DNA of 64,000 nt from Nitzschia sp. DOCU1 (lineage: Eukaryota; Bacillariophyta; Bacillariophyceae; Bacillariales; Bacillariaceae): contig OX595986.1 of NCBI GenBank assembly GCA_951394045.1, positions 2,695,534-2,759,533 of the forward strand. The letters run 5' to 3'. The notes beneath the pieces are model-generated. The model was not told the DNA's origin. It saw only the letters and a program-made list of their open reading frames with translations, and ran no database searches. Positions within the stretch are counted from its first letter, which is position 1. Every line of letters starts with the position of its first letter. Made by a program: the position numbers and the translations under genes. Positions 47,060 through 58,915 of this stretch are shown in pieces.

Positions 47060-48820
47060 CTAGTGATCGGCTAGAATCTTCTCCAAGGCCAGTAGACGAG
47101 GATCCAGTTTGGGTGCTGGCGAAGTCTTGTTGCCTTTGTCGGTCAAATCTCGCAAAAGTCTACGCTGCCGGCTGATCCAACGATAGAGTTCGCTGTGTTT
47201 GCTTGGGACACGAGTGTGGCCATGCTCCGCTTGAAACCGCACCAGCTGTTCGTACAAGACATCCCACCGAGCCGCTTGCCCTGTCCAAGCAAAACCAATC
47301 TCGTCCAGGGCCGCAATACGTTCAGCAGAAAGGCGGTTTCGTTTATAGGCAAAACGTTGGTGCTTGACCCACGACGCAAGAGTGTGATATTCTGGAGCAT
47401 TGAGAGGAATAGCAAAATGCCCGAATCGTTCCTTGAATTCACACAACTTGTGATACTGTTCCAACCACCGTTCATCTTGAACATCTACTGTAAATGTCAA
47501 GTCCCTCAATCGTTTGGCTCTTCCTTCGGCATCATCGGCGGCAATCGCCCAGTCAAAGTTGACTTTGTTGAGGGCTTCAATCTTTTCCGTGCTTTCCAAC
47601 GACAACTCGTGCTCTTCATCATTGGCTAGTTGGCGGAGCTTTCGTCTTTGTCGATCGACCCATTGCCACAGTGGTCCCGAGGAAACTGGGACACGCGTGT
47701 GACCATGTTCGGCATGAAAATCCACAAGCTCCTGGTAAAATTGATCCCACTTTTCTTCGTGAACGTCCCAAGCAAAGCCAATGGATTCCAAAGCAAGAAT
47801 GCGATCTTCTGATAACTCGTTATTGTGATAATGAGTTCGTTGTCGATTGACCCAAAAGCCCAAGGATGAGTCGTCTCCACCATGAGTTGGCGCGTTGGCA
47901 TGTCCATGGGCTTTGACAAAGTCACATAATCGTTGAAAATTTTGTTTCCATGCAGTTTCTTGCAAGTCAAAGATAAACCCCAGTTCTTTAAGTAAATTCA
48001 TACGAGTCTCTGACAATGTTCCTCCTCGATAGGCCTTGCGCTGTTGGTCCGACCACGTCCAGAGTTGCGGATCCACCTCCTGATCGACTTGCAACGTCCC
48101 GTACCGTTTTTGATAGGCTTCCAAACGATTGAACGAACGCTGCCATTGAGCTTCTCGTTCGGACCAAAGAAAGCCCATGGATTCAAGCACTAGAATACGA
48201 ATCTGATCCACTTCTGGAATTTGCTTGGTACGCCGAGAATGCAGGTGTGCGTAGCGTCGTCGTTGCAGTCCCACCCAAGCGGCAAGTTCGTCCGACACTT
48301 GTAACTTTTGACGCTCCGCCAAGGCAAACTTACTACTACCCGATGGCACGTGACAGTCGCCATGAATTTCCTTGTAACGAATCAGCTCATTGATCATTCG
48401 TTCGTCTTGAGGATCCAATCCTTGACGATCGACCGTCTCGGGTGCAGAAGTTACCGTAGTAGTTTTATCAGGAGCCTTTTGACTGTCACTGCTAAACGCC
48501 AGCCGACCGATCAAAGTTCTTCCCACAGTCCAGTCTTGCTGGATATCCCTCCACGAAGCTTGGAAGGAAGAGGAGTGTAAATGATTGTAGGAGTAGCGAC
48601 TGCATACTAGCAAAAATGGGGTGGTAGACTGCCACCGCTGTTGCTGCCAACTGCCCAAGGTGCGGGTGGTGGAACGCCATGAAACGTCCAGAGTTCGTCC
48701 CAAAACAACCCACGGGCGACCGACCACCCAGCTTGCCATTGGACTAGATATCTGGAAAGGTTCTTTTTGATGTCGTTGACAGCGACGACTCCAATATCTT
48801 GGCAACAGCTGGGTCTTCAT
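47060..48820 (-). CDS. Helicase-associated (HA) domain repeat protein
   Basis: Single exon, 586 residues from the ATG at 48820. Residues about 130-580 contain six tandem helicase-associated domains. Each has the pattern W-x3-F/Y-x2-L-x2-F/Y-x4-G-x3-V/P, then W-x2-x-QR-x-x-Y/L, and closes with a Leu-x-x-x-GF-x-W helix; examples are FHAEHGHTRVP, LASWVKHQRFAY and LDEIGFAWT. No helicase core is present. These repeats are strongly expanded in diatoms and thought to bind nucleic acid. The N-terminus (MKTQLLPRYWSRRCQRH) is Arg-rich without early acids, compatible with mitochondrial or plastid import. The last repeat is degenerate at the C-terminus. Confidence 0.88.
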   Translation of the reverse strand: MKTQLLPRYWSRRCQRHQKEPFQISSPMASWVVGRPWVVLGRTLDVSWRSTTRTLGSWQQQRWQSTTPFLLVCSRYSYNHLHSSSFQASWRDIQQDWTVGRTLIGRLAFSSDSQKAPDKTTTVTSAPETVDRQGLDPQDERMINELIRYKEIHGDCHVPSGSSKFALAERQKLQVSDELAAWVGLQRRRYAHLHSRRTKQIPEVDQIRILVLESMGFLWSEREAQWQRSFNRLEAYQKRYGTLQVDQEVDPQLWTWSDQQRKAYRGGTLSETRMNLLKELGFIFDLQETAWKQNFQRLCDFVKAHGHANAPTHGGDDSSLGFWVNRQRTHYHNNELSEDRILALESIGFAWDVHEEKWDQFYQELVDFHAEHGHTRVPVSSGPLWQWVDRQRRKLRQLANDEEHELSLESTEKIEALNKVNFDWAIAADDAEGRAKRLRDLTFTVDVQDERWLEQYHKLCEFKERFGHFAIPLNAPEYHTLASWVKHQRFAYKRNRLSAERIAALDEIGFAWTGQAARWDVLYEQLVRFQAEHGHTRVPSKHSELYRWISRQRRLLRDLTDKGNKTSPAPKLDPRLLALEKILADH

Positions 48821-49172
48821 CGGGCTGATGGATTCACCATCTCGTGTCCATGCACACACACACTCCACTCAAACTAGAGAGATAATATGCCACTGCCAGA
48901 TGCACCAGCCAACGTTAGAATGGCTTTATACCCCTGACGACATGCCGATTTCGAAGACAACTTTTTTCTGTCGCTTCATTTTCTTCTTTTGCCGTTTGGT
49001 TTGAGCACCAAAAGAGTCGAAGTGGTCGTTTTCAGAAAAAAGGGTTGAGAAAAGCTGGGCCGCACCCTTTTGGTGGTCGAAGTGGTCATCTCTCCCCTTA
49101 ATTTTTTCCGCGCTTGTCCGCCAACCACTCAAAAATTGCAGGAAAGCAGGCCCAAAAACGCAAGAAAAAGAA
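48821..49172. other. Flank between the HA-repeat gene and the retroelement
   Basis: About 350 bp. It holds the HA-gene promoter and host sequence up to the insertion. The word GTCGAAGTGGTC occurs twice here (about 49016 and 49076). No gene. Confidence 0.4.
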
Positions 49173-49365
49173 GACGCGCTCCACTTCGTTCCACGCGTCA
49201 CTCCGGAACGCGCTCCTTCGACGTTCGTCTTCGCGCGAGAACTAGGGATTGTAAGTCTTGATCGAATAGTAAAATAGATCAAGGGCAAGAACAACAAATA
49301 GTGGCAGAATCAGAGGTCTAAAAGCCCTTTGATTCAAGCTCCTCTTGATACGAGGGGCCTGATCC
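49173..49365 (-). repeat. Split direct repeat B2 (3' terminal)
   Basis: 193 bp, apparently identical to 49703-49895 (offset 530 bp). It forms the element's 3' end; its outermost bases are GACGCGCTCC on the plus strand. It contains a short inverted pair, CTTGATC/GATCAAG, around a 13 nt AT-rich loop. Confidence 0.92.
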
Positions 49366-49384
49366 CTAGGTGTGGGCGGGCGGG

Positions 49385-49702
49385 AAATTAGAAAAAAAGC
49401 TACGTCCGGATGGAGCAGCCCCAATTACTTGCAATTGTGAGCTGCTCCATCCCTTCTAGAAACGAGCAATCGTGCTCGAACCTCTCCGCTTGCACGGCAA
49501 AAACGACCGTTTCCGACGTAGAAACTTCCCCTTCACTCTTTGTTCGATTGCTCCATCGTTTGCAAATCGTTTGAGCACAGAGAGGGGAGAGGATTTTTCC
49601 GAAACGGCTCGACCGGCGTGGATGAGCGTGCCGGCGCTCCAAGGTTTGGAAGGGATGGAGGGCAGGCGGAGCCTCCCCTCTCCATACACTGCGTTCCGAC
49701 GC
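49385..49702 (-). repeat. Split direct repeat A2
   Basis: 318 bp, apparently identical to 56076-56393 (offset 6,691 bp). It abuts B1 with no spacer, giving the internal B-A junction. It contains 12 bp inverted arms GGATGGAGCAGC (49408-49419) and GCTGCTCCATCC (49441-49452). Confidence 0.92.
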
Positions 49703-49895
49703 GACGCGCTCCACTTCGTTCCACGCGTCACTCCGGAACGCGCTCCTTCGACGTTCGTCTTCGCGCGAGAACTAGGGATTGTAAGTCTTGATCGAATAGT
49801 AAAATAGATCAAGGGCAAGAACAACAAATAGTGGCAGAATCAGAGGTCTAAAAGCCCTTTGATTCAAGCTCCTCTTGATACGAGGGGCCTGATCC
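49703..49895 (-). repeat. Split direct repeat B1
   Basis: 193 bp internal copy of the B repeat, starting 53 bp beyond the recombinase stop codon in the coding direction. Confidence 0.92.
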
Positions 49896-49948
49896 ACCAC
49901 TTGACTTGAATGGAAGGTCCGAGGGTTGTTCTTGGTGGCTTCAATCTT

Positions 49949-51211
49949 CTAGAAATCCAGGCAGTGTGGGACTTCTGGGAGAGGGGCGACGGCTCCCCCA
50001 ACCATAGAAGAAGAGCGAAGAGACGGCGAGTCACCATGAGAACCCCAGGACGGCACGTGAAAGAAATGGTTAACGGAGACCATTTTCGAAGAAACTGATT
50101 GTGTAAACTGAAGCACCTGAGCTCGCAAGTAGGCCATGAACGCATCGGATTCCCAACGCCCGATCAGCATAATAGTGTGCACCGGAACACTAGCCAGATG
50201 CATGGCCATCGCGGCGCCAGAGCGGATTGAATGTGTCCCAACATCTTCGGGACCAAAGCCGAGACTGGCCCGCCCGAGAGCAGCGACGGAATGCCGGATG
50301 GCACCGATCAAGTCTTCAGCAGAGAGGGTAACCAGTTTCCCGGACGCTGCGACGGCATAGCAACACACCAAAGTGTCCTCGGTGGCTCCAGGGAGCCCCC
50401 GGACACGAGAAACAACGTCAGCCCACCGCTTCACGGGACAAAGGACCTCGTCATTGGTCCTATACATCGTCACTACCCCATGTCGACGATCAGTTTTCGA
50501 CCACCGGAAGCAGACTGATACGGCGTCGGCAGCGTGAAGATTGGGGTTGTCATGTAGAAGTTCAACCGAATTGGAGAAGAACTTGATATCTCCAAGCCTC
50601 AAAGGATCGGTCCGTCGCTCCCCTTGGACCTTCAGGTACTCACAGGAGCGCATCGCATGGAAGAATGCGCATATTGCTAACAACGCGAGGAAAGAGGACT
50701 TGGAACAGGGGCTCGAAGCATACATGTGCCTCAAGACTGAGGGAGTGATCGCTTTCTGGCCGGTTGTCGGTTCGTCCGAATTCGCGTATCCCCTGTATTG
50801 TTTGCGTAAAATCTCCGAAGTCCTTCCGGCGGCGTCGAGTCTGGGATCTGGACGTCCGGTCGCCAAGAAGGCCTGTGCCACTTTGCTGACATAGCGCTCG
50901 GTGGTGGCTGCCATAAGTGGGGTAGAACTGTCTCTACCGTTGGTGTAGAGTCCTTCCCTGATTGCTTGGGCAAATGCACATAAAATTCGGATTCTTGCTG
51001 GTGGACTGAGTCTGTCCATGTAAAGGTCTTCGCCGAGGTCAACCCCGGCACAGAAATCTTTCCAGCGCTCGAGAGCGCGATCTTTGACCGCGTGGGTGCT
51101 TTCGACGACTGCGGCATCCCTTTCCTGATCGGCAGCATTGAGTAAGCCCAGGAGGCAATCTTTTCCGGTACGGGACATAAATGAAAGTTCGGCGGAAGCT
51201 GCTCGGGACAA
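49949..51211 (-). CDS. Tyrosine recombinase of the retroelement
   Basis: Joins the circular DNA copy of the element into the genome in place of an integrase. 420 residues from 51211; residue 12 is an alternative start. Catalytic residues are all visible: Arg188 in FFHAMRSCEYL, Lys about 239 in FRWSKTDRRH, His327-x-x-Arg330 in GTHSIRSG, Trp353 in LIGRWES and Tyr361 in FMAYLRAQV. The preceding part resembles the core-binding domain of phage-type recombinases. It overlaps the 3' end of the RT/RNase H frame by 481 bp in another frame, so translation probably needs a separate message, reinitiation or frameshift. The tail (about residues 375-420) is low complexity. Confidence 0.92.
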   Translation of the reverse strand: MSRAASAELSFMSRTGKDCLLGLLNAADQERDAAVVESTHAVKDRALERWKDFCAGVDLGEDLYMDRLSPPARIRILCAFAQAIREGLYTNGRDSSTPLMAATTERYVSKVAQAFLATGRPDPRLDAAGRTSEILRKQYRGYANSDEPTTGQKAITPSVLRHMYASSPCSKSSFLALLAICAFFHAMRSCEYLKVQGERRTDPLRLGDIKFFSNSVELLHDNPNLHAADAVSVCFRWSKTDRRHGVVTMYRTNDEVLCPVKRWADVVSRVRGLPGATEDTLVCCYAVAASGKLVTLSAEDLIGAIRHSVAALGRASLGFGPEDVGTHSIRSGAAMAMHLASVPVHTIMLIGRWESDAFMAYLRAQVLQFTQSVSSKMVSVNHFFHVPSWGSHGDSPSLRSSSMVGGAVAPLPEVPHCLDF

Positions 51212-52707
51212 GCGAAACGCAAGAGAGAATCAAGGTCAGATAGTGATAAATATTGGTCGCGAGAAAGAGAATCAGCGACGTCATTCGCCTCTCCTGGGAA
51301 CCACTGGGAGTAGAGGCACAAGTCGTTCTCGATGATATACTCAGCAATCCACCGTGCGACTGCAAGCTTTTCGGGGTCAGAAACCACGTCATTGACGAAG
51401 TCGGCGGCAACTTCTTTCGTGCGGTGCAACCACCCCTCGGCATTAGTTGCATCCGTCTGAGCTAACAAGCAGGTCTCGGCCGGGAGGGGAGAGTGCATTT
51501 GGATCATCACGCCAATTGCCAGAAACTCCCCCATCCCTTGACCTTTCGTCTCCCACCTCTCGATCGGTACAGGCAACCTCCAAGCCAACCCACAGCCACA
51601 GTAGCACACCCCTCCCATGCCGTAGTAGCAAAAATCGGTGCGAAACATGACGTCAGGCCTGCGATGGACGAGATTGTTAATGCTGATCCCGTCCTTTGCC
51701 TTGTCAAGGATTCTTCGGCACGTCTTCAGGTCTTCAACCACCGTCTTTGGAATCTTGTATTCCACCTTGGTCTTGTTTGCCTTTCGTCGCTCCATGAAGG
51801 CCAAGTAACCCGAGACTCGGACGAGGAAATGTCTGGCCATCGGAATGATAGTGGCCGTGTGCTGTAGCCTCCCGTGTGTCGTCTCAAGATTTGAGAGAGT
51901 CGACCCGCCAGTGCAGATCAGCTGCAGGATCTGCTCTCTCCACTCAACAAACTTGTCAAAAGGGAGTGAGACGCGGAGCCGTCTGGTATCGATCAGCCAA
52001 CCCAAGACAACCTTCAGTTCTTCTGGTTGTCCTTCGGCCTCGTACTTGGATAGGGAAAGTGGATGGACTCGAGGCACCGGCTCGTTTGGGTGAACTGGCC
52101 GAGTCAACAAAGAGATTGTTAGTGGCATCAGGACCGAGAGTCTCCTGACCTTGTCCTCGTCTTCGTTTTGTAATTGGGGAACCATCCCAATTCCGTCGTC
52201 AAGAAAGTTGTCGGCCTGCCCGAAATCGTTTTCAGGGACGTCGACTGACAGGGCCCTTCCTCTGGCAAATGGGATTGAGTCAGGCAGTCTCTTCTTCATG
52301 GGGACCTCTACAGGAAGGAGGTTCAGAAGTTTTTCTGGATCGACACTTGTGCAGCGCTGAAGGGCATTGACTAGGTCGCAGCAGGCTTCCGCGAAGTCGC
52401 TAAACCTCGATGGATTCGGGCTTCCCCCGAAGGTCAGCCGGAGGGACAAAAGGAAAAACGTATTGGTCGCAAAGCAACTGCTCCCCGCCGCGTCCGGTGC
52501 TGAGGCATGGAGGCGGCGAAAGGCTTTGGACCAGTCGACTTTCATCAGGAAGATAGGAGCCGTTTCGTGCCTTAGCCTTGTTGAGACGATGAAATGGAAA
52601 ACTCTCGAAATGCAATGACCGAATCTGACCGGCGAGAGTTCTTCTTGAATTGTTCGTGAGTTTGGAGACTTTCCTGATGGGAAGTCCCAGGATAGGTCAT
52701 GGGTAAG
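50731..52707 (-). CDS. Reverse transcriptase (C-terminal part) and RNase H
   Basis: Continues the pol frame after the in-frame TGA at 52710-52708; 658 codons. It opens with LTHDLS, the end of a conserved RT strand, then motif A KVDWSKAF (Asp 57), LTFGGSPNP, and motif C NFLDDG (Asp 170-171), where Tyr of the usual Y-x-D-D is Phe-Leu. RNase H follows: RTDFCYYGMGG (first Asp), GEFLAIGVM (Glu), QTDATNAEGWL (Asp) and NDVADSLSRD. This RT-RH type lacks a connection to integrase and fits DIRS/Ngaro-group elements. The first ATG in this part is 52545; whether it is translated alone or by readthrough is unknown. The C-terminal 160 residues overlap the recombinase frame. Confidence 0.85.
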   Translation of the reverse strand, partial: LTHDLSWDFPSGKSPNSRTIQEELSPVRFGHCISRVFHFIVSTRLRHETAPIFLMKVDWSKAFRRLHASAPDAAGSSCFATNTFFLLSLRLTFGGSPNPSRFSDFAEACCDLVNALQRCTSVDPEKLLNLLPVEVPMKKRLPDSIPFARGRALSVDVPENDFGQADNFLDDGIGMVPQLQNEDEDKVRRLSVLMPLTISLLTRPVHPNEPVPRVHPLSLSKYEAEGQPEELKVVLGWLIDTRRLRVSLPFDKFVEWREQILQLICTGGSTLSNLETTHGRLQHTATIIPMARHFLVRVSGYLAFMERRKANKTKVEYKIPKTVVEDLKTCRRILDKAKDGISINNLVHRRPDVMFRTDFCYYGMGGVCYCGCGLAWRLPVPIERWETKGQGMGEFLAIGVMIQMHSPLPAETCLLAQTDATNAEGWLHRTKEVAADFVNDVVSDPEKLAVARWIAEYIIENDLCLYSQWFPGEANDVADSLSRDQYLSLSDLDSLLRFACPEQLPPNFHLCPVPEKIASWAYSMLPIRKGMPQSSKAPTRSKIALSSAGKISVPGLTSAKTFTWTDSVHQQESEFYVHLPKQSGKDSTPTVETVLPHLWQPPPSAMSAKWHRPSWRPDVQIPDSTPPEGLRRFYANNTGDTRIRTNRQPARKRSLPQS

Positions 52708-54018
52708 TCAGAACTTCGGGACTCTGTCTCCGTTTTCGTCGACCGTTGTTTGTGTTGCAATTCCTAACGGTGCGATCCAACAATCTGGAATATTCACAGC
52801 TTCTCTGACTGGCAAAGGTAAGCTGAAACCGTGCTTCCTTTCGTCTTCAAGCAGCTTTTCTAGTACCGCGGGATTCTCGGTCGCCGACTTGTGACTGCCT
52901 CGCTCCACAGCTTCGAGAACTGACCGTCTTCTTGCTTGCTCTGTCTGGTGTTTCAGGGGCGTCTGGACTCCCCTTGAGAGCCCTGATTCGATATTGTTCC
53001 AGAAGGGATGAAATCGAAGGAGCGGACGCAGCAAGCCGATCGGCTTGAACTCTGATCCGTAGGCCAGGCAGGTTCCCCCGGCTTCTTGAAAGGCGCGTTC
53101 AAGGTCCATGCTGTACTCTTGGAGGATAGAGAGGTTGTGTTCCGCGTCGTGGATAGTGAACCCAAATCGGAAACGACAATCAACCGGCTCAGGCTGTTCC
53201 CACTGAGCAACGGACTTGAGTGCCTCTAGAATTGAGACGCTTTCAAATTCTTCGACCGGCTGCGTTAGCTCGGGATGAATTTCTCGGGCGGCTTGGGCGA
53301 CAAGACGATCTCCGTCGGGCTGTTGCCCCGTCCCGTCAGTTGCCGGATGCGGTTCCGGACTTCGGCGGACTTGCAGCTTCTTGAGAGAGACCCCGGTGGA
53401 TCCCTCAAAGTTCGGTCCTTGGTTTGAATGTGGCTGTGGTCGGGCTTGCTGTTCTAGGGTTGTTGGAAGGTCCAACTCTGACGAACTCGGCTCCGGCGGA
53501 GGGAATTCCGGGTCTTGCCCCGGCTCTTTCGCATTCTCCCGTGGTTCCCTTGGGCTCCCCCTGGGTGAAATTGGCTTACCTATGAGTTTCTCGTTTTCTA
53601 GTCCAGCCTCGGCTAGACGTCGATCCTTCTTTCGAACTGTCAACGACATTCCGCTTTCGGTCCTACTCTTCTTGGAGGGGCTCCCTCCCAACGGCCTAGC
53701 TCCTCTTCCCGTCGAAGCCGGGTCCGGTTCTTGTCTTGTTCGCGCAACTTTGGGGGAATCAAACCTGAGTTGTGCTACCTTGGTTCCGAGCGACCGACTC
53801 GGGGACTGGTTTTCTGGGTCATCATTTTTCTTATCCTTGCTTGGGCTTGAAAACAATTGGGGAGGATTTGGCCACGGCGGTGGTAGGGCTGGCTTTCGCG
53901 GAGTGCCGACCTTTGGAGGGAGACTTGACCTTGGGCTGAGCCTTGGTGGTTCGAGCCTCAACTTTCTGGAAGTCTTCTTCTTCGGTGTGCCCCTTCCTTC
54001 GTCCTCCCCTTCTAGGAG
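52708..54018 (-). CDS. Pol N-terminal region, ending at an in-frame TGA inside the RT
   Basis: Same frame as gag and as the RT part downstream. It follows the gag stop (TGA, 54021-54019) directly; the first in-frame initiator-like codon is near 53961. The first 250 residues are Pro/Ser/Arg-rich and disordered. The remainder (FGFTIHDAEHNLS, YGSEFKPIGLLRPLLRFHPFW, then CWIAPLGIATQ) is the entry to the RT domain. The frame stops at GDRVPKF-TGA, where RTs of this group normally read R-L-x-x-D-L-S. A CGA (Arg) to TGA change would account for it. It is therefore either a nonsense mutation or a leaky stop. Confidence 0.75.
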   Translation of the reverse strand, partial: LLEGEDEGRGTPKKKTSRKLRLEPPRLSPRSSLPPKVGTPRKPALPPPWPNPPQLFSSPSKDKKNDDPENQSPSRSLGTKVAQLRFDSPKVARTRQEPDPASTGRGARPLGGSPSKKSRTESGMSLTVRKKDRRLAEAGLENEKLIGKPISPRGSPREPRENAKEPGQDPEFPPPEPSSSELDLPTTLEQQARPQPHSNQGPNFEGSTGVSLKKLQVRRSPEPHPATDGTGQQPDGDRLVAQAAREIHPELTQPVEEFESVSILEALKSVAQWEQPEPVDCRFRFGFTIHDAEHNLSILQEYSMDLERAFQEAGGTCLAYGSEFKPIGLLRPLLRFHPFWNNIESGLSRGVQTPLKHQTEQARRRSVLEAVERGSHKSATENPAVLEKLLEDERKHGFSLPLPVREAVNIPDCWIAPLGIATQTTVDENGDRVPKF

Positions 54019-56016
54019 TCAAAGCTCCCCTGTCAGGCAAAATCTTGTAAACTTCTTCAGACCTTTCACTGTCTCTTGATCAGGAGCCTTGTGGGACGAC
54101 GCTCTCAAGCAGTCGTCGCCGGCTTTGCAGAACCCACAGACGTGGTACCTGACGCAAGTGTCGTCTCGTGATCCGTTGAACTTGGGGACCTTGTCTCGGG
54201 GGACCTTCCCGTCGCAATGCAACTTCAAGAATTTGTCCCAGGTGTGATCATCCGGCATGATCACTCCTTGAATCGGCGATGGATTCTTGGCTCCTTTCTT
54301 CTTCTCGTCGGGTTTGGCTTTCTTGTTTGGACCGGGCCCTCGGGATCCACTCCCGTTTCCATTTTCGGATTCCCTCTTGGATCCCAGGAGATCAATGAGG
54401 CCTTTTGGAACTTGTCGTTTGAAAGCGTGGTTCTGAATCTCCCGCTGGATGGCGCTGATCGTGAATTCGAATTCGTCGAATCGAGTGTCGGCCATTTCCT
54501 TGGACTGTCGCACACTCAAGAACAGCGACTGGACGGCGAGATCGATTGCGTATACGACCTGGAGAGGAAAGGTCGGATCAGACTCGGCGCACGAATGATA
54601 TTGGTCCGAGCACATCTCCATATGCTCGACTTGGCACTGGAGGACCTGGGCTATCTTCGACTCTCCTCCAAAGAGGAAGCTGAAGAACTTATGCCCGTTC
54701 CGAATTTGTTCTTCAGCTCGGTCCATCGATGCCGGCATCGTCATCTTGGATGAGTCAAAGGCGGCTTTGATGTGGCGGTCTCCACTCTCCCTATCCATCG
54801 TGAAACCGGCTTCTAGCTCTCTTCCATTGGCGTTTCCGATTGACCCTCCGGTTGACTTTGAGAGGTGGAGGAGGGAGAAACATTGGTGACCGGGAAAGGC
54901 CCCTCCCGCCCACATGAGCTTCCCCTTTAGGGCTGCTCCTGCCACGGTTGCATTCGCGGCAAAGCTCCACCCGTGGATGTACTTCATCGAGTGGTTCAGG
55001 TCGTCTTGAGCTTCTTGAAGGGTCAAGTTGCTTTCCAAGAACTCCAGGATATCTTCTGGAGGAGAGTGTTTCTCGTCGGTTCCGTTGGTGGAGCAGAGTC
55101 TGCGGTAAGCAAGCTGGTCCTTTGGTCTCTTCTTATCGAACTTGTACTGGCTAACCTTCGGTCTTGATGCTGCTTGGTCTGAGAGAGAACGGATACTGGC
55201 AGCGATTCTATCCATCGCGTCCGAGTTTCTGGGTTCGTCTACGTCAACAGGATCGGGGTTATGGGGCTGGTCGACCGAATGGCGTCCCTTCTGCTGCTTG
55301 AACTCGAACCCATGAGGGGAGTTTCCATCGGTGCTGCAGATCGAAACGTTGACTCCAGGAATCTTCTCGTGCGCAACTAGGAACAGGAAAGTTAAAATAG
55401 CTCCCAGCTCTTCCATGCACCTTTCGTCTAGAATCTCGGTGGAATCTTCAATGAAGCTTGCGATCTCGCTTCTCATCTTGAGGAAACACTCGACTGGATC
55501 GTCCAAGGTCTTGTCGGAAGCCAGGGGCTCAGCCAAGAACGCCGGGATCAACTTGCAAGGTTTTCCAGTCCAGTCGATCCAGTTTCCTCCTCGTCTGGTT
55601 CCAGCCGGCTTCAATTCCATCAACTTCTTCTTGTCGTCGCATCCCAAGAGGGCCTTGACACAGTCCGTCTCGGGAACCTTGATCGATTCCCCATCAGCCG
55701 GACTGATTTCGGTGAAGAAATCCGACGGCTTGAAGGTAATCGGGTAGGAGTTGATCCCAAGCCCCAGTCCCAGGATCGCAAAGGGGATCGGCTCGGCTCC
55801 ACGACGGCCAATGTTCTTCACGTTATGGGCAGCCCGAAGCTTCCCATTAACCGGGTCGACGAAGGCGACGATGCAATCCTGCTCACTCGAGAGCGAGGCG
55901 AGGCAGTCGCCCGACGGCAAGTTGCTGAGGACGCCTTTGGCAGAGGCCAAGGCTTCGGCATGGAAGGAACCAAAGTTCGGGGTCTTTTTAAAAGCGCTGA
56001 ACCAGACAGGAGGCAT
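54019..56016 (-). CDS. Gag-like protein of the retroelement
   Basis: 665 residues from the ATG at 56016 (MPPVWFSAFKK), 60 bp inside the end of A1. Not matched to a known Gag by sequence, but position, size and ending fit. It has a helical middle (about 330-530), a Lys/Gly/Pro-rich basic stretch (about 550-590) and, near the C-terminus, a Cys/His cluster C-x5-C-x2-C-x5-C-x5-H (CVRYHVCGFCKAGDDC) that could be a nucleic-acid-binding zinc finger. It ends in TGA followed by CT, and the frame continues into pol without a shift. Confidence 0.78.
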   Translation of the reverse strand: MPPVWFSAFKKTPNFGSFHAEALASAKGVLSNLPSGDCLASLSSEQDCIVAFVDPVNGKLRAAHNVKNIGRRGAEPIPFAILGLGLGINSYPITFKPSDFFTEISPADGESIKVPETDCVKALLGCDDKKKLMELKPAGTRRGGNWIDWTGKPCKLIPAFLAEPLASDKTLDDPVECFLKMRSEIASFIEDSTEILDERCMEELGAILTFLFLVAHEKIPGVNVSICSTDGNSPHGFEFKQQKGRHSVDQPHNPDPVDVDEPRNSDAMDRIAASIRSLSDQAASRPKVSQYKFDKKRPKDQLAYRRLCSTNGTDEKHSPPEDILEFLESNLTLQEAQDDLNHSMKYIHGWSFAANATVAGAALKGKLMWAGGAFPGHQCFSLLHLSKSTGGSIGNANGRELEAGFTMDRESGDRHIKAAFDSSKMTMPASMDRAEEQIRNGHKFFSFLFGGESKIAQVLQCQVEHMEMCSDQYHSCAESDPTFPLQVVYAIDLAVQSLFLSVRQSKEMADTRFDEFEFTISAIQREIQNHAFKRQVPKGLIDLLGSKRESENGNGSGSRGPGPNKKAKPDEKKKGAKNPSPIQGVIMPDDHTWDKFLKLHCDGKVPRDKVPKFNGSRDDTCVRYHVCGFCKAGDDCLRASSHKAPDQETVKGLKKFTRFCLTGEL

Positions 56017-56075
56017 GGTGAAAGGCAAAAGAGGCGACGAGGGAAGCAAAAAACAACCAACAACAACTGAAAGTT

Positions 56076-56393
56076 AAATTAGAAAAAAAGCTACGTCCGG
56101 ATGGAGCAGCCCCAATTACTTGCAATTGTGAGCTGCTCCATCCCTTCTAGAAACGAGCAATCGTGCTCGAACCTCTCCGCTTGCACGGCAAAAACGACCG
56201 TTTCCGACGTAGAAACTTCCCCTTCACTCTTTGTTCGATTGCTCCATCGTTTGCAAATCGTTTGAGCACAGAGAGGGGAGAGGATTTTTCCGAAACGGCT
56301 CGACCGGCGTGGATGAGCGTGCCGGCGCTCCAAGGTTTGGAAGGGATGGAGGGCAGGCGGAGCCTCCCCTCTCCATACACTGCGTTCCGACGC
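56076..56393 (-). repeat. Split direct repeat A1 (5' terminal)
   Basis: 318 bp at the element's 5' end, apparently identical to A2. It should carry the element promoter and leader. The 12 bp inverted arms are at 56099-56110 and 56132-56143, about 85-130 nt before the gag ATG in the transcript. Confidence 0.92.
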
Positions 56394-56544
56394 ACCCCAC
56401 AAACTATTGTTGCTGCTGCGGTCCTGTTGACGACCTAATAGGACCTCATTGCTCGAGGCAAGGTATTATATTCGAGCTTTGGGACGCCCTTTGGATAATC
56501 GGAGATTGGCGTTACATTTGAAGGACGTGCTACTAGTGGAAACG

Positions 56545-58915
56545 ATGACGACTCCATCGTCGACCCAACAAAGCACGTCTGTCGCCTCCAGTCCCGATGT
56601 CTTGATGTTAGAAGAAGAATCAGCGGCACGAGCCAGTCTCGATAGCACCGTGGCAATATCGGCCATGCTCACACCGGATCAGGCACTAGATCGAAAGAAC
56701 TCGGTCAAAATTTTGGACTATACGCTTCCGAGATGTGCCATGCCTCCTCCATCGGAACTTTTGCCGGTCGAAACATTTGTGATGAACGCCATTCAATCAA
56801 AACACAACAACGACACAGACCCTACACATTCACAGGGCTATAAAGCTATTATTGATGCTCTCAAACGCCCCCTGGATCCACCCATGCTTCGAATGGTCTT
56901 GATTTCGTTACGCACCGCGGGCCAGGGAACGGTTTTGAACCTTTTGACGACACACGCCACTACTCATGCACAATTGATTCACTGGTTATTTCGATTTAAC
57001 GCTACAATGCGACCCAAGATCCCTCGTGATGAAAAGAGTGAGAGTATGTGCGAGGTATTTTACAACGGAAATCTTCTCGATGCGCATTTGCATCTCATCC
57101 TGGCCATGGTCTCGGCGAGGACCGTAAATCTCGTTCCAGCGTTGACAGCCGTCTGGAGAATGCTAGTGGAAAATATTGAACTGGAAGAAAGTTTGTAAGT
57201 ATTCAATTATTTCGTGAGAGTGGTCCGTTTATGCAGTCGTTATTTTTGCTCACTTTCGCCTCTATGCCATTTATGTGGTTAGTCAACATCGATTACATGC
57301 CATGCTTTGCACCATGATGCGATTAGTTCCCAAAGCCCGAACGGATCTGTTTCCAATCATTGCGTCTCGGTTTCCATTTTGGAAGGCTGAAAAGCGGATA
57401 TTGAAGTGGTACTGTATTCAGGCGCTGCGGGTATTGGACTATCTACCATCCATTCGAAAATCACTGCTTGAGTTGGTTATTGATAAGTGTCTTGAGATTG
57501 ATGTCAATATCAAAATTGACGAGAATGGAGAAGTTTCGATTGAAGAGGAGAAAGAAGAAAAAGACAAATCGATGGAAGCAAGCGAAACGGCGGAGGAGGA
57601 TTCACCAGCTCAAAAGGATGCGGTCGGAGAAAATGTGGATATTTTGTCGGACACGCTGGATTCGTTGCTGGCATTACTCTTCCGAACACTGAACGATGAA
57701 TCCAAGGATGGTCAGGGGGCAAGGGAATTATACTATGAAGTTCTTCCTGTCTTTGAATCAACAATCATTACGACACACAAGTCGAAATTTGTTCAATATT
57801 GCATGTTCCTGCTTTGTGGTTTGGAATCAGAGCGATTGACAGCCAACTCCGCTTTGAACGAACAGCACACCATTCTGCATAGAGATTTTGCCGCCAAGCT
57901 TCTTGAGTTAATTATGGACCCATATCGCGCTACGTTGACTCGACAGAGCGCAGCATGCTATTTGGCTTCCTTTGTCAGCAGAGCTTCCTACGTCGAAGCG
58001 GAGACTATCTGCGAAGCAGTGTCTGCGCTTTTACGGTGGGCTGAGGCATACATGGATTCTCTTGCTACCAACTCCATCCGAGCAGCCGATTCTAGGGAGC
58101 AAAGTGAGCTACACTCGCTCTTTTACACCGTTTGTCAGGCTGCTTTCTATATCATGTGCTTCCGTGGCGTTGAAGCTATTGCTTTTTACCAGGAAGCCCT
58201 TGCACACTACACCCAGAAGGAATCGAGTGAAAAAGCGGAAAAGATTCTCCTTCCAGACCCTAATGACATTGATCTCGGAGCTTCTCGGTGGACGAACATA
58301 TGCAACCATCAGCTGCAACCACTACGATTCTGCCTTGAGAGTGTTCGGAGCGAATTTTTGCATATTGCCCATGCCTACGAGTTGATCGATGAGCAAGACC
58401 TCGAGAAGTTGGTTGCGGACGCCAAGCGTATGTCCACTGGTAGAGTGAACAAAAGGGCGGCCTCTGCAATCACGACTGCAGCAACATTGGAAAAGCAACG
58501 TCGGAAGGGTGGTGTTGGTGGATTAGGACGGGGTTCAAATCCCTTAAGGTCGTTCTTTCCGTTTGATCCATTGTTACTGCGTCGATCGCACGCTTTCATT
58601 GAACCCTTCTACAAGCATTGGCAAGGCCCTGTTGAAGAAGAAGATGTTCTGGTTATTGATGAGGCACCTGAGGACAACGGGCAGATGTTTGACATGGAAG
58701 AAGATGGCCAAGACGCGGACGATTCGGATGACGACGAAGAAGAAGGGCCCGTCGTCGTCTCTGATCACGAGACCAAGGAGGACGACAGTGACAGCCACAG
58801 CGACGAAGATGCCTCATCTCATGCCATTATTAAAAAGAAGCAAGAGCAGAAAGAAGCGTGGGCTCAAACGCTGAAACGTCCAAGATCTCAGAGCATGGAA
58901 AACGGCAGTTGGTAG
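56545..58915 (+). CDS. RRN3: RNA polymerase I initiation factor RRN3 (TIF-IA)
   Basis: Bridges RNA polymerase I to the rDNA promoter complex. Exons are 56545-57194 and 57283-58915 (760 residues); the 88 bp intron (GTAAGT/GGTTAG) splits a Phe codon. The ATG at 56545 is the first true ATG in a frame open from 56449. It is an alpha-solenoid with RRN3 landmarks: LHLILAMVSARTVNLVPAL, QHRLHAMLCTMMRLVPKAR, FPFWKAEKRILKWYCIQALR, SLLELVIDKCLEIDVNIKID followed by an acidic loop, and FFPFDPLLLRRSHAFIEPFY near the C-terminus. The last 110 residues are acidic/Ser-rich. The YR retroelement ends 151 bp upstream, so the gene's promoter must lie largely within or beyond the element. Confidence 0.93.

Follow-up and report, generated by a model that had tools for sequence, protein, structure and literature searches.

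A probable Ngaro-type tyrosine-recombinase retrotransposon with split direct repeats in the genome of the diatom Nitzschia sp. DOCU1

Ngaro elements are retrotransposons with split direct repeats, and the accessible passages of three papers give their layout as A1-[open reading frames (ORFs)]-B1A2B2, or A-pol-B-A-B, with no methyltransferase (MT) (PMC8547959, PMC4157794, PMC3783388). For such tyrosine-recombinase (YR) retrotransposons, the rebuilding of the ends is a proposed model in the available portion of the literature, in which reverse transcription needs near-identical repeats (PMC6681497). Among stramenopiles, the Ngaro element of Cafeteria burkhardae is described in excerpt with the layout A1-[ORFs]-B1A2B2, the order gag-like ORF1, reverse transcriptase (RT) with RNase H (RH) and YR, and a recombinase with HxxR and a catalytic Tyr (PMC8547959), and Ectocarpus appears, in the part of the report at hand, as rich in DIRS-order elements with 15 Ngaro and 5 PAT-like families (PMC12477816); both are likened to the present element by description. 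For diatoms, partial texts report annotated DIRS elements in Phaeodactylum tricornutum (Phatr3; 14 copies, 18,118 bp), which may or may not represent the lineage treated here (PMC5859163), and a Gypsy/DIRS1 class in Chaetoceros tenuissimus (PMC8613185), while DIRS elements are not listed for the two diatoms in the available text of Maumus 2009 (PMC2806351). Here, a stretch of 64,000 nucleotides from Nitzschia sp. DOCU1 (contig OX595986.1, positions 2,695,534 to 2,759,533; hereafter the window) was analysed, and a 7,221-bp element within it was found which is very probably a Ngaro-type element, i.e. a split-direct-repeat YR retrotransposon devoid of MT.

The element occupies positions 49173-56393 on the minus strand, to which all of its features belong, in the order A1-gag-pol(RT/RNase H)-YR-B1-A2-B2 (B2-A2-B1-YR-RT/RH-gag-A1 when read along the plus strand). 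An earlier interpretation made from the letters alone (the sequence-only reading) had proposed this order with the same limits and overlooked a 19-bp spacer between A2 and B2. The 5′ terminal repeat A1 (318 bp, 56076..56393), which would hold the promoter region, equals A2 (318 bp, 49385..49702) at 318/318 positions, and B1 (193 bp, 49703..49895), which adjoins A2 exactly, equals the 3′ terminal repeat B2 (193 bp, 49173..49365) at 193/193, so that the identity of the repeats claimed before was confirmed over their full length; ungapped extension alone recovers 300 of the 318 A positions. The length and identity of both repeats make a chance origin impossible. The spacer CCCGCCCGCCCACACCTAG (49366..49384) consists of a constant C-rich motif and variable nucleotides before B2. 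Inverted repeats of at least 40 nt were searched for in 48000-58000, with 0 pairs found.

Between A1 and B1, a gag-like ORF1 of 665 aa (54019..56016, counted from its first ATG at 56016) ends with a UGA (54019..54021), behind which pol (54018-50731) continues in the same frame; this UGA is a candidate readthrough stop. The label gag follows from the position of the ORF and from a CCCH-like zinc finger, C-x8-C-x5-C-x5-H, near its C-terminus (54091..54156), and no gag homologues were present among 7,997 scored candidates of the protein database. Pol begins with a proline-rich leader and the start of RT (52711..54018) and, after a premature in-frame UGA in the RT region (52708..52710), resumes as an ORF of 658 aa with the RT catalytic core and RNase H (50731..52707), an assignment based on AlphaFold and Foldseek and on the ratio of nonsynonymous to synonymous change (dN/dS). 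The RT catalytic motif FLDD lies at 52195..52206, its D170 and D171 being invariant in 58 sequences, and the predicted structure places the RNase H domain at approximately 51253..51660 (model residues 350-485), in line with the earlier claim that RNase H follows RT. The YR ORF (49949..51178, from its first ATG at 51178) runs in the same direction as pol and overlaps it by 448 nt (50731-51178) in a different frame. Its catalytic span (50129..50650) comprises R194 (50648-50650), K245 (50495-50497), H333 (50231-50233), R336 (50222-50224), W359 (50153-50155) and Y367 (50129-50131). The YR frame is open in the window copy and pol is split inside RT by the UGA at 52710-52708, a position at which the copies described below on contigs C1, C10 and C8 are open. 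The element had been called complete, which holds for its structure and fails for pol, since the premature UGA had escaped notice: the window copy is structurally complete and not intact and, judging from this stop codon, is no longer expected to make full-length pol by itself.

In order to follow the family beyond the window, which lies on a 5.2-Mb contig (C2), the assembly of 52 Mb in 63 contigs was searched. The genome-wide count gave at least five copies including that of the window, with YR matches at the DNA level on C2 (window), C4 (96%), C10 and C8 (86%) and C1. The C1 copy, the 3′ part of which enters a run of N, is 99.8-99.9% identical to the window copy over the parts compared. Pol frames are open for 1,095-1,098 codons in C1, C10 and C8; flaws occur elsewhere, as the gag of C10 contains an internal UGA and the C4 copy is split with its RT pieces 13 kb apart. 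The 5′ end GCGTCGGAACG is common to C2, C10, C8 and C1 and the 3′ end GGAGCGCGTC to C2, C10, C8 and C4, with different flanks in each case, and no target-site duplication was detected in any of the three copies having both flanks. In each of the four copies tested, B1|A2 joins the two termini exactly (C4 is one base off, 22 nt from the joint), as expected if the junction of a circular intermediate is stored there. The five nucleotides GCGTC (minus strand) are found at both termini of the window element (49173-49177 and 56389-56393), the B1|A2 joint reading GCGTCGCGTC; they are possibly the crossover core of the recombinase.

The repeats match within copies and differ between them. A1 and A2 agree at 318/318 positions in C2, 321/321 in C10 and 322/322 in C8, and B1 and B2 at 193/193, 205/205 and 205/205, respectively. 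At all 37 A columns that vary between copies, A1 equals A2 (three copies having both), and at the 20 variable B columns B1 equals B2 in four copies with the sole exception of one C4 site. Such pairing of variants within copies indicates that the repeats were recopied in the last cycle, and the comparison provides sequence evidence that A and B are renewed at each replication, adding to the model cited above that the ends are indeed recopied. The window copy has a T run that is 2 nt longer near the right end of A, in A1 and A2 alike, which would put the start of the RNA to the right of the T run, on the right-hand edge of A1. The recent activity suggested earlier is thus substantiated by the near-identical C1 sister copy and by repeats homogenised within copies. 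An empty allele was not found in the assembly, both flanks of the element being single-copy, and no solo A-B repeats were seen among the 12 matches listed (a lower bound), in contrast to C. burkhardae, for which isolated AB repeats are reported in the accessible text (PMC8547959).

The layout is not confined to this family. Searches of the genome returned 27 RT and 47 YR matches, family I (that of the window) counted in, and 27 further loci were assembled from among the matches listed rather than from all 47 YR matches. A resolvable direct-repeat pair of 56 to 517 bp was present in 18 of these 27 loci, located 3′ of a co-oriented YR at a spacing of 348-464 bp; C1_3901k was omitted from the repeat and motif counts on account of nested repeats, and the 8 other loci had no resolvable B1/B2 pair. 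In a quick RT tree of 85 rows (host sequences, unnamed database entries and one Chaetoceros sequence), 28 host rows fell in three separate places, with a warning of long branches linking lineage III to the rest. The window family shares 24-36% identity with the other host families, besides one short piece of 46% and one of 33%, and its nearest relatives are the unnamed proteins P0016 (63% over 40% of the query) and P0001 (48%). The one named relative is P0043, listed in EukProt under Chaetoceros neogracile, whose RT-RH is 36% identical over 95% of the query and stands in the same large clade on a distinct branch. By these sequence comparisons, the genome contains at least five lineages of the B1-A2-B2 layout, subclades counted, namely I (window), II, IIIa, IIIb and IIIc. 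The epithet of a notable lineage given before therefore overstated the case, the more so as 89 RT and 72 YR relatives, nearly all unnamed, exist in the protein database and as DIRS-order elements are on record, in the partial texts cited, for P. tricornutum (PMC5859163) and Ectocarpus (PMC12477816).

These data also bear on the notion that misassembly duplicated the repeats, or that an LTR (long terminal repeat) element and a Crypton were piled up by chance. Its only footing was that the sequence-only reading had been unable to exclude it, and it has been refuted, with a negligible residual chance: loci of the same family on different contigs share the arrangement and identical ends, have unrelated flanks and carry copy-specific variants in both repeats, and the pair recurs at similar spacing in the 18 loci of other lineages.

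Two observations on individual loci are added. In L060 of lineage IIIa (G000:C1:4786453-4790391), a 517-bp direct repeat with 386-bp spacing corresponds to three B and two A in tandem. L054 and L055 of lineage IIIb (G000:C13:142667-146719 and 159484-163536) lie 17 kb apart, have identical RT rows and share the first 12 nt of the 3′ flank; they are perhaps a local segmental duplication rather than two insertions.

The proteins of the element are under strong purifying selection. Between subfamilies, dN/dS was 0.08 for gag (versus C8 and C10; 497-498 codons), 0.05 for RT/RNase H and 0.06 for YR, and the proline-rich pol leader gave 0.43-0.48. A value of 0.6 for gag of C2 versus C1 was discarded as an end-alignment artefact, as both gags are 100% identical. 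Synonymous change in the pol frame was low in the pol-YR overlap (dS 0.10-0.12), as expected where two frames are both used. The recombinase set R-K-HxxR-W-Y, which had been recognised in full before, does not vary among the 35 sequences aligned (two host copies plus 33 of the 72 homologues) or among a set of 47. The predicted YR structure (mean predicted local distance difference test score, pLDDT, of 85) is Cre-like, Cre being the best Foldseek match (E 3e-8). The AlphaFold model of the window pol, built with 57 of the 89 homologues, has a mean pLDDT of 79, and its best Foldseek matches are the RTs of xenotropic murine leukaemia virus-related virus (XMRV), Moloney murine leukaemia virus (MMLV) and Ty3 (E 7e-7 to 5e-5), with low TM-scores of 0.16-0.40; the RNase HI match is weaker (E 3e-3 and above). 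Beyond RNase H, pol is mostly disordered (pLDDT <50 at residues 546-594 and 629-658). In sequence searches of the PDB, no relevant match was obtained with the RT profile and none with a single YR sequence, and the YR profile gave weak Cre matches only (E 0.16 and above). No viral contig yielded relatives with RT or YR alignments. The near-absence of Pfam matches, detailed below, indicates divergent sequences far from the best-known families, in contrast to the C. burkhardae element, the RT and YR of which fall in Pfam families according to its description in the available text (PMC8547959).

With regard to classification, the A1-ORFs-B1-A2-B2 direct repeats, the placement of the internal repeats after YR, a pol with RT and RNase H, a co-directional YR and the failure to find an MT domain all agree with Ngaro, the 19-bp spacer being additional. 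An LTR retrotransposon of the copia or gypsy type does not fit a YR in place of a DDE integrase, split repeats and three of three copies without target duplication, and a Crypton, which has YR only and no RT, does not fit the presence of RT and RNase H. DIRS1-like elements resemble the window element as YR retrotransposons with overlapping frames and differ by inverted terminal repeats, an internal complementary region and an MT, none of which was found in it. The split-direct-repeat YR retrotransposon in a diatom that had been proposed is hence upheld by its anatomy, and the diatom origin of the DNA by 18 silicon-transporter and 63 light-harvesting matches.

Several points weigh against the assignment to Ngaro. 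Ngaro elements usually have no ORF overlap and the present one has 448 nt, which is unusual for Ngaro according to a partial text (PMC3266345); in the available part of another source, YR ORFs may overlap others, so that separate ORFs are not obligatory (PMC3783388). The RT tree contains no named Ngaro sequence, and transcript ends, circle and readthrough are all deduced. Finally, the intact C1 pol had no Pfam match, RT included, up to E = 1, and matches were sub-threshold only for Phage_integrase in YR (E 0.014) and for RVT_1 in a lineage IIIb pol (E 0.23).

The same overlap, more typical of DIRS according to the available text of PMC3266345, is one of the grounds for regarding the element as a PAT-like member of the DIRS branch that lost its MT and is Ngaro by appearance only. 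Precedent exists in the accessible portion of PMC4157794, where a Pat1 derivative of Caenorhabditis briggsae without MT resembles Ngaro and where a gag zinc finger separates Pat1 from other PAT elements; the gag of the window element has a CCCH-like finger as well. PAT-like elements (Pat1, Toc3, Kangaroo) share the split direct repeats and carry an MT domain, which was not found here: no further domain is folded past RNase H in the window pol model, and Pfam reported no MT in the C1 pol or in the lineage IIIb pol L025, a weak test given that RT was missed or sub-threshold too. Since the repeat pair downstream of a co-oriented YR in the 18 further loci is moreover in the Ngaro/VIPER position, we consider a PAT-like origin unlikely. 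A VIPER-like identity is still less probable, as is a separate YR retrotransposon lineage that converged on the same repeat layout. VIPER shares A1...B1A2B2, independent origins are discussed in the accessible text of PMC6681497, and Pfam fails to recognise so distant an RT; against this, VIPER is known from Kinetoplastida only, as far as the available part of PMC3783388 goes, and nothing ties the element to VIPER.

For the Ngaro-type element, the following mechanism is proposed. A1 would act as the promoter of an mRNA that starts close to the right end of A1 and stops close to the A2/B2 border. Readthrough of the gag UGA would give pol, and YR would come from the overlapping frame. The A and B sequences absent from the transcript would be restored during reverse transcription from the internal B1A2, and a circle would result, the B|A junction of which would be the sequence stored at B1|A2, and YR would recombine this junction into the chromosome without target duplication. 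The window copy would have gained its RT UGA afterwards.

The gag-pol border was compared in 31 loci. All 16 with an intact border, drawn from lineages I, II, IIIa and IIIb, have gag and pol in a single frame with a UGA between them; for lineage II the upstream frame was seen open for 63-92 codons only, to the end of the DNA examined. The other 15 comprised nine loci near the edge of the available DNA or without ORF and six set aside as broken, of which three have UAG or UAA before the longest RT ORF and two others have a lineage II UGA border elsewhere. UGA as a sense codon of the host was rejected, given that 5 of 14 long host ORFs found mechanically in the window end in UGA. Programmed UGA readthrough would be the simplest reading of this border. 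Hairpin folding covered 7 of the borders. In lineage II a strong hairpin follows the gag UGA closely (z -2.4 and -4.6; L017, L014 and other loci), which by eye has a 12-bp stem past a 7-nt spacer; two pairs of the stem differ between two subfamilies, one in a single strand and the other in both strands, and C4_1773k breaks one pair. A hairpin behind every gag-pol UGA was rejected, with z of 0.4, 0.3, 0.6 and -1.6 in lineages I and IIIb and a weak -1.9 in IIIa.

Instead of readthrough, pol could arise by splicing, by a frameshift upstream or from translation that starts internally at an AUG further down. Such routes are favoured by a UGA context that varies among lineages, by the lack of a significant hairpin in the four borders folded from lineages I and IIIb (two from each) and by the UAG or UAA in three of the broken loci. 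The first AUG of pol lies directly after the UGA in C4_1773k (lineage II) and 15-62 codons in at other loci, which would suit internal initiation; in C10 and C8 it comes 306 codons in, past a leader under selection, which argues against it, as do the constant frame and UGA across four lineages and the lineage II hairpin. Taken together, these routes appear rather doubtful, and UGA readthrough is preferred.

A C-rich motif, in the form CCCGCCC or CCCACC, stands just before B2, or at the first bases of B2 in lineage II, in every one of the 22 loci whose repeat pair could be resolved. The motif was defined after the sequences had been inspected, and its loose form has a background of 2% (2,276 of 112,650 38-mers). 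Around B1, within an equal span, 10 of the 22 loci lack the loose motif; 8 have it as the start of B itself (lineage II) and 4 through nearby C-rich sequence (IIIa). A1 is available for family I alone, so that only in this family can the end of A2 be fixed; here the motif directly follows A2, with 0-2 nt varying between CCT and GGGATC on the B2 side in four copies; the variable nucleotides are possibly untemplated additions at the strand-transfer point. Our guess, consistent with the repeat limits, is that the motif is a 3′-end or priming signal of the RNA. A spacer copied from a tRNA 3′ end was rejected for the one acceptor stem searched, as the GGGCGGG/CCCGCCC pattern gave 0 matches with no mismatches allowed.

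It is tentatively suggested, at somewhat less than even confidence, that diatoms host a deep Ngaro-type radiation with programmed UGA readthrough, assisted by a stimulatory hairpin in one lineage, and with a conserved C-rich A2/B2 signal that marks the RNA 3′ end or the start of reverse transcription. The one-frame gag-UGA-pol arrangement and the C-rich motif at the start of B2 are possibly new, as judged from a limited literature search, none of it aimed at the C-rich motif. Among the papers listed, no title or abstract opening concerned readthrough in DIRS or Ngaro elements, and the word 'readthrough' is absent from the Ngaro main texts checked, PMC8547959 included. If the suggestion is true, both features would be unreported for YR retrotransposons so far as this limited search shows, and the split-repeat model would gain a testable cis-signal. 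The two conserved signals would permit precise predictions for RNA ends and gag-pol expression in a group that includes tractable laboratory hosts. The lineages described here also show that a diverse DIRS-order component may accompany copia and gypsy in a diatom genome.

Several smaller observations complete the description. The zinc finger of gag is the same in the C1, C10 and C8 copies, and a related pattern, C-x8-C-x3-C-x5-H, occupies the corresponding position of gag in three lineage IIIb loci. Every one of the 17 internal stops reported in the matches to RT (7) and YR (10) is UGA, with UAA and UAG at 0, which fits arginine codons decaying at methylated CpG or weak selection against UGA; the light-harvesting matches show mixed internal stops and may span introns. 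The silicon-transporter matches, all above the family cut-off, are located on contigs C2 and C12, several of them closely paired, and are read as about ten genes. Silicon transporters are found in some other silicified protists too. The element has a GC content of about 54% compared with about 49% in its surroundings, and the host genes on either side are transcribed away from it. To the left, an ORF containing six stretches of helicase-associated (HA) domain occupies 47060-48868 (minus strand), the element lying about 300 bp upstream of it; to the right is RRN3 (57275-58915, plus strand), and on that side about 150 bp (56394-56545) separate the element from the first ATG of the ORF, to which it lies upstream.

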